Below, one piece after another: positions 52,814-56,473 of a stretch of DNA of 64,000 nucleotides; positions within the stretch are counted from its first letter, which is position 1; the number at the start of each line of letters is the position of its first letter. The DNA comes from Pseudomonadota bacterium (GTDB lineage: Bacteria > Pseudomonadota > Gammaproteobacteria > UBA5335), in assembly GCA_002862435.1 (NCBI GenBank), contig PKDC01000006.1, positions 1 through 64,000 of the forward strand, given 5' to 3'. The position numbers and the translations under genes are program-made. Below the pieces are notes generated by a model. The model did no database searches. It saw only the letters and a program-made list of their open reading frames with translations, and was not told where the DNA came from.

Positions 52814-53224
52814 ATGAAAAAGCCCTCCCTCCTGCTGTCCCTGGGCAGTCTGCTCGCGCTTCCCCTTCCTGCGATGGCCGCCATGACGGAAATGGCGGAC
52901 AGTGAGCTGGCCGACGTGTCGGGTCAGGCCTATATAGTGGCGTTCGGCCGTTACGAACGCACCATTCCCGATCTTACCGAGCGGAACGTCGCCATCGGAC
53001 CAATCGCCGTAAGTGACGCAGCCCGCAGCGTGGAAGCAGGCCTTCCCAATCTGACCGATCAGGTCCGCCAAGGGGTGGTATCTAGCACAAATTCTGCGCT
53101 AGCGGCAGGTAAGTTGGCCTTGGTCGGCAGCGTGGCAACCGTGCCGGGTGTCGGCACCGTTGTTGCCCCCATACTCGCGTTGCTGCCCACCCCAAAGATT
53201 AGCTACAAGATAAGCAACGGGTGA
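52814..53224 (+). CDS. Small exported protein with a DVSGQ motif, function unknown
   Basis: A 136-residue protein with a clear Sec signal peptide (KKPSLLLSLGSLLALPLP, cleavage near AMAA). The mature start MTEMADSELADVSGQAYIVA matches the short E-L-x-D-V-S-G-Q pattern seen in several exported proteobacterial proteins, some linked to pilus-like or surface systems. The rest is small and Gly/Ala/Val-rich with one hydrophobic stretch (GVGTVVAPILALLPTP). GAAGGTGA precedes the ATG. The 52606-52813 interval in front contains a perfect palindrome TCGCATGCGA (52741-52750) and no gene. I do not recognise a function. Confidence 0.75.
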   Translation: MKKPSLLLSLGSLLALPLPAMAAMTEMADSELADVSGQAYIVAFGRYERTIPDLTERNVAIGPIAVSDAARSVEAGLPNLTDQVRQGVVSSTNSALAAGKLALVGSVATVPGVGTVVAPILALLPTPKISYKISNG

Positions 53225-54117: not shown

Positions 54118-55401
54118 TTAGCGGGATGGGCGTGCCGCACGATCCGACGTGATCCCCAGGGTCAAGAATAGCGCTCCCGCGAACATCACCAGCACCACCG
54201 ACAAGCCAAGGCGCTGGCTGCCGCTGGCGGCAGTCAGCCCGCCCACCAGGAAGGGACCCATAAAGGTGGTCGCCTTGCCAGAGAAGGCCATCAGGCCAAA
54301 CAGCTCGTTGCGTTGGGCGACGGGCGCCATGTGCGCCAGATAGGAGCGGCTGGCTGCCTGGGCAGGTCCCACGAACAAGCCCAGCAAGCCACCCCACCAC
54401 CAAAAGGCCGGGGCATTCGGCGCCACCAAGAGTGCGGCGCCCGTCAGCAGCAATCCGACCAGACTCCAGACCATGGTGGACTTGGCCCCAAAACGGTCAT
54501 CAAACCAGGCAAAACCCACCGCGCCCACCGCGGAGGTCAGATTCAGCACGATGGCAAACAGCAGCACCTGCCGCTCATCAAACCCAAAGGTCCCGGCCGC
54601 GAACAGGCCGCCAAAGGCGAACACGGTAGTGAGCCCGTCGATCAACAGCAGTCGACCGAGAAAAAATCGCAGCAAGGGGCCATCGCGCAGCAAGCGGCGC
54701 AAAGACACCACCAGATCGCCGAACGCGGCCCGCATCAACGACTGATTGGACGGCGCCACAACGCGCGCCGGATCGCGAACCGTCAGCAGCAAGGGCAGCG
54801 CGAACAGCGCAGTCCACGCCGCGGTCAGGAGGAACGTGGCCCGCACCGGCTCCGCCTGGACAGGGTCCAGCCCAAAGGGCGGCGGATCCGCCTGCACGAA
54901 GCCAAACAGCGCCACCAGCAGGCAGGCCAACCCTCCCACATACCCCAAGCCCCAGGCCCAACCCGACCAGCGCCCAATGCGCGCAGGGGTGGCCAGATCC
55001 GCCAATTGGGCGTTGTAGAGCACGAAAGCCAGTTCCAGCACCACCGTTCCCAGCCCCGCCAACAGCAGGGCACGCAGGGCGAAATCCGCTTCCGGACGCA
55101 CCGTCCAGAGCGCCGCGGTCGCCAACACATTCACCAGGGTCAGCAGCACGAGAAAAGCCCGCCGGTGCCCGCCCCGATCCGCCACCGCGCCCATCAGCGG
55201 CGCCAGCATGGCAATGAACAAGCCCGCCACACCCATGGTCTGCCCCCACCAGGCGGTCCCCGTGGCGGCGTCCGGGGCAATGGCGCGGGCGAAATAGGCA
55301 GGGAACAGGAAAGTCTGGATCAAGGCAGCGTAGGCGCTGGTGGCCCAGTCATAGAGCGACCAGGCAATCAGCGGGCCGCGGCGTTCCGGGGCGGTCGACA
55401 T
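54118..55401 (-). CDS. MFS transporter, UMF1 (Atg22-like) family
   Basis: A 427-residue inner-membrane protein with about 12 helices. The N-terminus IAWSLYDWATSAYAALIQTFLFPAYF matches the UMF1/Atg22-like branch, whose marks are SLYDWANSAF and VLYNAQLADL in the fourth helix. Further: GLGYVGGLACLLVA and VGPAQAASRSYLAHMAP. Its substrate is not known; relatives export amino acids or similar solutes. The ATG at 55401 is chosen because the upstream frame is unlike the family. The Nudix gene starts 37 bases after its stop on the same strand. Confidence 0.88.
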   Translation of the reverse strand: MSTAPERRGPLIAWSLYDWATSAYAALIQTFLFPAYFARAIAPDAATGTAWWGQTMGVAGLFIAMLAPLMGAVADRGGHRRAFLVLLTLVNVLATAALWTVRPEADFALRALLLAGLGTVVLELAFVLYNAQLADLATPARIGRWSGWAWGLGYVGGLACLLVALFGFVQADPPPFGLDPVQAEPVRATFLLTAAWTALFALPLLLTVRDPARVVAPSNQSLMRAAFGDLVVSLRRLLRDGPLLRFFLGRLLLIDGLTTVFAFGGLFAAGTFGFDERQVLLFAIVLNLTSAVGAVGFAWFDDRFGAKSTMVWSLVGLLLTGAALLVAPNAPAFWWWGGLLGLFVGPAQAASRSYLAHMAPVAQRNELFGLMAFSGKATTFMGPFLVGGLTAASGSQRLGLSVVLVMFAGALFLTLGITSDRAARPSR

Positions 55402-55573: not shown

Positions 55574-55606
55574 AAAAAACCCCGGTCGGCGTGATACCGA
55601 CCGGGG
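55574..55606 (-). terminator. Intrinsic terminator of the CsrB-like RNA
   Basis: A ten-pair stem, CCCCGGTCGG with CCGACCGGGG (55580-55589 and 55597-55606), followed on the minus strand by TTTTTT (55579-55574). No protein gene lies upstream of it on this strand for about 8 kb apart from the proposed RNA, so it must end a non-coding transcript. Confidence 0.85.
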
Positions 55607-55910
55607 CTGCGTGAGCCAAAACATGGCTGGAAGCAAAGTCCTCGTGTGCACTGAACTGCCGATTGATGGCCGATCCCGCCGGCATCCTGCCATCCGATCC
55701 CCTCGTCCCTGACCGGAGGGGGGTCCATCAATCCGCGGTGGCCTTCCTGGCCCCCGGCAACCATCCTGGCTACCGATCCGTTTTGCTGCGTCCCTGCCTC
55801 TTCCCTGAGTAGCGGCTTCCTGCCACCATTCATCCCTGATCGGGCCAATCCTTTGGCCCTGTGGTATCCGTACCACGTCATCTCCGGACGGTTTCCATCA
55901 TCCCCCAACA
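55574..55910 (-). ncRNA. CsrB/RsmZ-type regulatory RNA (CsrA-sequestering)
   Basis: The region of about 610 bases between the MFS gene and dtd has no protein-coding sense but, read on the minus strand, holds about 20 GGA triplets in 340 bases, in contexts such as CAGGGA, CAGGAT and CAGGAAG. Several sit in hairpin loops: GTGGTA-CGGA-TACCAC (55876-55861), GGGCCAA-AGGA-TTGGCCC (55859-55842), GGCC-AGGAA-GGCC, CCA-GGA-TGG and GGCA-GGA-TGCC. This is the layout of CsrB/RsmB/Z RNAs, which bind many CsrA dimers. The 3' end is the terminator at 55574-55606. The exact 5' end and promoter are not resolved. Confidence 0.8.
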
Positions 55911-55946
55911 AAGTGACAAAAACAGTCAGACAGTGCCGAGAATCGG

Positions 55947-55964
55947 TGTAAGCATTTTCTTAAT
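55947..55964. promoter_or_regulatory. GacA/UvrY-like activator box upstream of the CsrB-like RNA
   Basis: TGTAAG (55947-55952), six bases, then CTTAAT (55959-55964). The GacA consensus in Pseudomonas is TGTAAG-N6-CTTACA, so the first half is perfect and the second matches at four positions. It lies about 40-50 bases upstream of the proposed RNA start. Confidence 0.5.
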
Positions 55965-56014
55965 ACATAGCATTAATGGACTCTCTGCTCATCCATGGCT
56001 TATCGGATGTCCCC

Positions 56015-56473
56015 ATGATCGGATTTCTGCAACGCGTGCGGCGAGCCTGGGTGGAGGTGGATGGACACCGCGTGGCCCGCATCGAGACCGGCCTGCTGGT
56101 GCTGGTCGGCATGGAGCGCAGCGACACCCATGCCATCGGCACCCGACTGTTGCAGCGCGTGCTGGACTACCGGGTGTTCCCCGATGCGCAGGATCGCATG
56201 AACCGCAGCCTGCGCGACATCCAGGGCGGACTGTTGCTGGTACCCCAGTTCACCCTGGCGGCAGATACCCGCAAAGGCAACCGTCCCGGTTTTTCCCCGG
56301 CCATGCCACCCGACGAAGCCCAAGCTTTATATGGCGAACTGCTGCAACACGCTCGCACCCAGCATCCGATCGTGGAAAGCGGCGTCTTTGGCGCTGTCAT
56401 GCAGGTCAGCCTGACCAATGATGGGCCGGTGAGTTTCTGGCTGCAGGTGACAAATGAAATGGCGGTGCGTTGA
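56015..56473 (+). CDS. dtd: D-aminoacyl-tRNA deacylase
   Basis: Removes D-amino acids (and glycine) wrongly attached to tRNA. The 152-residue protein from the ATG at 56015 begins [17 protein letters not shown]. It keeps [13 protein letters not shown], then [21 protein letters not shown], the S-Q-x-T-like motif [18 protein letters not shown] and [20 protein letters not shown] with the Gly-cis-Pro region. In the first motif it has PQFTL where the usual reading is SQFTL. An in-frame ATG at 55976 adds 13 residues without resemblance. Confidence 0.93.

Follow-up and report, generated by a model that had tools for sequence, protein, structure and literature searches.

A predicted CsrB-type antagonist RNA gene divergent from dtd and its syntenic relatives in Gammaproteobacteria

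An unannotated RNA gene was found on the minus strand at 55891-55574 of the window (the whole 64,000-nucleotide stretch of the UBA5335 contig that was analysed), and its features make it very probable that it encodes a CsrB-type antagonist RNA, activated by UvrY/GacA and sequestering CsrA. The predicted gene (55574-55891, ~318 nt, or roughly 320 bases) lies between its divergent neighbour dtd, encoding D-aminoacyl-tRNA deacylase (55976-56473, plus strand; PF02580, E 8.5e-49), and a downstream gene for an MFS/Atg22-like transporter (54118-55401, minus strand, with a probable start at 55401; PF11700 and PF07690). Attributes of the Csr/Rsm class were found together: GGA in loops, a non-coding transcript unit with a terminator, a palindromic upstream activating sequence (UAS), and genes for CsrA and UvrY/BarA. 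The encoded CsrA has the usual N-terminal sequence, the UvrY/GacA orthologue is 52% identical to E. coli UvrY and has uvrC close by, and there is a BarA/GacS-like hybrid kinase (35% over ~886 aa). Elsewhere in the window, a 136-aa ORF between ferrochelatase and NUDIX genes (52814-53224, plus strand) gave a weak match to DUF6160, below the cut-off (E 6.6e-05).

The initial annotation had put the number of GGA triplets on this strand at about 20, and 20 were counted in the 345 nt of 55574-55918. This is the GGA density peak of the 64 kb on both strands, with 20 to 21 per segment of that length, vs a mean of 5.6 to 5.9 and a plus-strand maximum of 16; no same-length segment of either strand lay clearly above it. 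ANGGA (9 vs 2.8 in dinucleotide shuffles) and CA(N)GGA (8 vs 1.8) reached these counts in none of 500 shuffles. In the relative G003 total GGA (13) did not exceed such shuffles, but CA(N)GGA did. A GGA-rich spacer arisen by chance would accord with the G-rich composition of the region, where the bare GGA count exceeds dinucleotide shuffles only moderately (20 vs 13.1, with 3 of 500 reaching 20). Architecture, promoter, hairpins and synteny are nevertheless kept in independent genomes, and the covariation and synteny of the tail-model matches described below also speak against such a spacer, which we regard as scarcely credible. A second GGA-rich place in the same genome (L091) proved to be coding, inside an apparent nusA, and so did not yield a second Csr RNA.

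Much of the GGA lies in hairpin loops. The folding and loop count that had been proposed as a check placed 9 of the 19 GGA of 55900-55574 in the loops of hairpins whose stems have 4 bp or more, where shuffles averaged 3.4 (2 of 300 reach 9); the same loop test gave 11 of 22 for E. coli csrB, and the stretch as a whole is more stably folded than its shuffles (z = -4.1). Two hairpins named in the initial annotation were both exact: gtggta-CGGA-taccac at 55861-55876, in which G002 shows one compensatory and one broken pair, and gggccaa-AGGA-ttggccc at 55842-55859. The latter is supported by the loop test and the pairing comparison, as are tggtggc-AGGAA-gccgcta (55810-55828), ggcc-AGGAA-ggcc (55740-55752) and tggc-AGGAT-gccg (55680-55692), while in tcggtagcc-AGGAT-ggttgccgg (55754-55776) pairing is preserved through one two-sided change and four one-sided ones; all are on the minus strand. 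An intrinsic terminator (ten-pair core plus T tract) follows at 55576-55606, and the ten-pair stem with six U described earlier was recovered at 55608-55578, with TTTTTT after it. Across 19 relatives, two-sided changes affect seven pairs of its stem, in an alignment fitted to the model.

In four genus-level sequences 98.7% of cells in the proposed hairpins were paired, a percentage biased toward the window because the structure was drawn from its sequence. Five pairs changed on both sides in this set, a small number of which three fall in the terminator, vs at most one when partners were slid. Pairing of the GGA hairpins was kept across ~80% identity; within the genus, GGA triplets were only slightly better kept than others (10/18 vs 42%).

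The same strand also carries a 121-aa ORF (55911-55546) over the RNA gene, with the MFS gene next in line, which is what a small protein gene (this ORF, or one of 150 aa) or a long 5' leader of the transporter gene would look like. The ORF has no Pfam match, however; a 1-nt deletion throws it out of frame in G001, which is 99% identical, and stops interrupt it in G002 and G003, both 82% identical. Gap lengths among the relatives (1, 2 and 3) are not confined to multiples of three. The substitutions neither follow a clear codon phase nor are in excess at third positions, so that conservation does not follow codons and the earlier view of a stretch without a credible protein held. Against a leader, the strong, covarying terminator stands between the RNA and the MFS gene, and the downstream gene differs in G006 and at the typA/pip-dtd loci while the RNA is retained. 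We consider a protein gene or leader very unlikely.

Upstream of the antagonist RNA gene lies a GacA/UvrY-type box (ATTAAGAAAATGCTTACA; 55947-55964, minus strand) that reads ATTAAGN6CTTACA, with two mismatches to TGTAAGN6CTTACA, which we take to be the GacA/UvrY consensus and against which it was scored. TAAGN6CTTACA with no mismatch has a single site in the 2.88-Mb assembly, and that site is this box. The box occupies an equivalent place in seven relatives (G001-G004, G006, G008, G048); its left half is imperfect in the window's genus and fuller in some relatives (L160, L167, L177). With at most one mismatch allowed, sites resembling the UAS numbered 12 in the 99 kb that diverge from dtd vs 13 in 819 kb elsewhere; 7 of those 13 come from reading the same palindromes in the opposite direction. 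A more permissive pattern gave hundreds of chance matches in the window's own genome and was dropped. In P. brassicacearum the GacA UAS, also palindromic and upstream, is TATAGCGAAACGCTTACA (PMC7911923).

A CYGACTG box, here CTGACTG (55923-55929, minus strand), begins 17 nt after the UAS and overlaps the -35 region; the gap is exactly 17 nt in the window, G002, G003, G004, G006, G008, G048 and L048. At a further constant distance past it, xATxAT was found in every same-order relative examined, aligned with a probable -10, GATGAT, at 55897-55902. The two elements are read as -35 region and -10. A sigma-70 consensus promoter scan of the locus found nothing good, and the -10 is therefore one that we infer from the relatives. 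This placement, at 55902-55897, puts the start of the RNA near 55891 and not 55910, with transcription probably beginning within 55889-55892; the 3' end of the span first proposed (55574-55910) stood, and its 5' end was revised.

These elements suggest a route of control. The BarA/GacS kinase would activate UvrY/GacA by phosphorylation, and phosphorylated UvrY/GacA would bind the palindrome at 55947-55964 and may switch on the promoter whose -10 lies at 55902-55897. The resulting ~318-nt RNA, ending at the terminator, would offer many GGA hairpin loops on which several CsrA dimers could load, lowering free CsrA and lifting repression of its mRNA targets. Such targets may include motility, pili and carbon flow.

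Membership in a known Rfam family was not recovered. An Rfam 15 scan of the locus and of the relatives scanned gave nothing at cut-off, and relaxing the thresholds brought up no more than a weak resemblance to CsrB. CsrB (RF00018) scored 17.6 bits against the locus (E 0.0095 in a 651-nt search), far from its gathering score of 71, vs 380 bits for the E. coli csrB control, and genome-wide it gave no match at E<=1. For PrrB_RsmZ (RF00166; cut-off 44 bits) the highest score, 20.9 bits, fell at another place in the genome. The Rfam CsrB/RsmX/Y/Z test suggested earlier thus produced no match at gathering score, and membership in RF00018 or RF00166 was rejected. The term 'CsrB/RsmZ-type', used in the initial annotation for a CsrA sponge, is accordingly retained for the mode of action, to which the UAS, GGA hairpins, partners, broken ORF and synteny point, and not for Rfam membership.

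On all testable counts the predicted RNA looks like CsrB in its mode of action. It resembles E. coli CsrB (RF00018) in length (~318 vs 369 nt), GGA number (20 vs 22), loop GGA (9/19 vs 11/22), terminator, intergenic place and presumed UvrY control, but adjoins dtd, not syd/yqcC, and has its own 3' tail. With Pseudomonas RsmX/RsmY/RsmZ, which carry 6-10 GGA (PMC7911923), it shares an upstream palindromic GacA UAS and GGA loops, although it is about three times longer, has more GGA and has different neighbours. The Pseudoalteromonas fuliginea Csr sRNAs Pf1, Pf2 and Pf3 (25, 21 and 9 GGA) were likewise recognised by GGA, promoter and terminator (PMC9927453, PMC11882849). Pf1 and Pf2 are reported to be confined to one genus (PMC9927453, PMC11882849), whereas tail and synteny allow the dtd-linked family to be recognised in several families. 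No Csr RNA linked to dtd or pip was described in the literature searched; some of these loci may be among the older genome-wide predictions of Csr sRNAs.

The 3' tail (55609-55652, minus strand) consists of AGUGCACACGAGGACU, then UUUGCUUCC, an AGCCA...UGGCU hairpin and ACGCA. UUUGCUUCC is the counterpart of UCAAUCACCUCC in other families, and the consensus of the tail, UCAAUCACCUCYAGCC, is followed by a small hairpin and the terminator. A GAGG/CCUC tail hairpin was discarded as a universal feature, its upstream half missing in G188, G297, G051 and others. A first tail model (R1) gave matches that below 36 bits were mostly generic terminators. For a second covariance model (R2) only the 65-nt tails of seven sequences were used, and 369 class-level genomes were scanned with it; dtd, pip, the UAS/promoter and the GGA region were all left out of the model, so it provides an independent check for six new high-scoring genomes. 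Thirteen matches reached at least 34 bits, and 11 of them adjoin dtd and/or pip (prolyl iminopeptidase). Weaker matches in G051, G191 and G009 also adjoin pip and have a UAS matching TGTNRGN6CYNACA, and Ectothiorhodospira species match R2 too. The synteny-supported matches span seven family labels (f1, f2, f3, f42, f45, f47, f166). In two Competibacteraceae (L010, L054) no such RNA was found within 750 nt upstream of dtd, nor anything further upstream by the R2 scan, and blastn against plasmids found none. By these comparisons, which support a Csr/Rsm antagonist RNA, the predicted RNA is part of a syntenic, Rfam-invisible family over at least seven families.

The tail also bears on whether this is instead a structured sRNA of the Hfq/ProQ type that acts by base-pairing, its GGA incidental in G-rich DNA. 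The most conserved piece is indeed a single-stranded tail (UCAAUCACCUCY; UUUGCUUCC here) with hairpin and terminator, as in seed-and-terminator sRNAs, and contains AUCACCUCC, which we take to be the anti-Shine-Dalgarno end of 16S rRNA. Loop GGA and CA(N)GGA exceed shuffles, however, and the GacA-type box is kept; moreover, in the window's genus the UCAAUCACC part of the tail has diverged to UUUGCUUCC and is lost, yet the GGA hairpins and UAS are retained. A base-pairing sRNA is therefore very improbable. The antagonist RNA might itself represent a Csr-sRNA family, undescribed and inherited vertically, that is anchored between typA and pip-dtd; besides sequestering through GGA, such a family would use its common tail UCAAUCACCUCYAGCC for a second function, for instance CsrA competition by pairing to GGA/SD sites, which the presumed anti-Shine-Dalgarno identity of the motif would allow, or a controlled RNase E entry site; we put this forward tentatively, as a possibility we rather doubt. 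A role of the conserved unpaired tail in RNA turnover is an attractive idea, given a position similar to that in a known E. coli case.

Further GGA-rich RNAs were seen at other loci. A shorter RNA, driven by a UAS and carrying another tail (GCCAACCAAGC), occupies the same place at other dtd loci (Sedimenticola-like, Chromatiales). Such RNAs (L024:2008-1800, L027:1987-1782, L029:2770-2590, L035:1454-1256, and L079, ~957 nt upstream of dtd) have a divergent dtd/pip position and a common 3' part made up of GCCAACCAAGC and a GGCGAC that closes on a 5' GUCGCC; an Rfam scan of those in L024, L027, L029 and L035 gave no match. At L177:1330-1840 and L181:1330-1850 a second UAS (CCTACA), CCGACTA/CCGACTG, a GGA-rich stretch and a terminator come directly after the first, apparently forming tandem Csr-type RNAs between pip and an apparent typA. 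Ectothiorhodospira has a UAS-driven GGA RNA (L036:1926-1673, between ttcA and pip-dtd; L016:1858-1604; L046:1857-1605) with GGA in the loops of the tail hairpin and terminator themselves. In Thiohalocapsa (L037:1956-1700), ~14 GGA with repeated (g)GATGCACC/GGACGC follow a box that resembles the UAS, ~1 kb upstream of dtd, in what seems to be a Csr RNA undergoing rapid expansion.

Sequence conservation is said to be absent among Csr antagonist RNAs, and this makes them hard to find (PMC11882849). The tail-plus-terminator model, the fixed promoter layout and the address, divergent from dtd or pip-dtd, find predicted Csr RNAs where Rfam is silent, in many gammaproteobacterial families. They would open the Csr switch to study in purple sulfur bacteria, in Sedimenticola-like symbionts and in uncultivated groups, and the conserved tail becomes a testable element.
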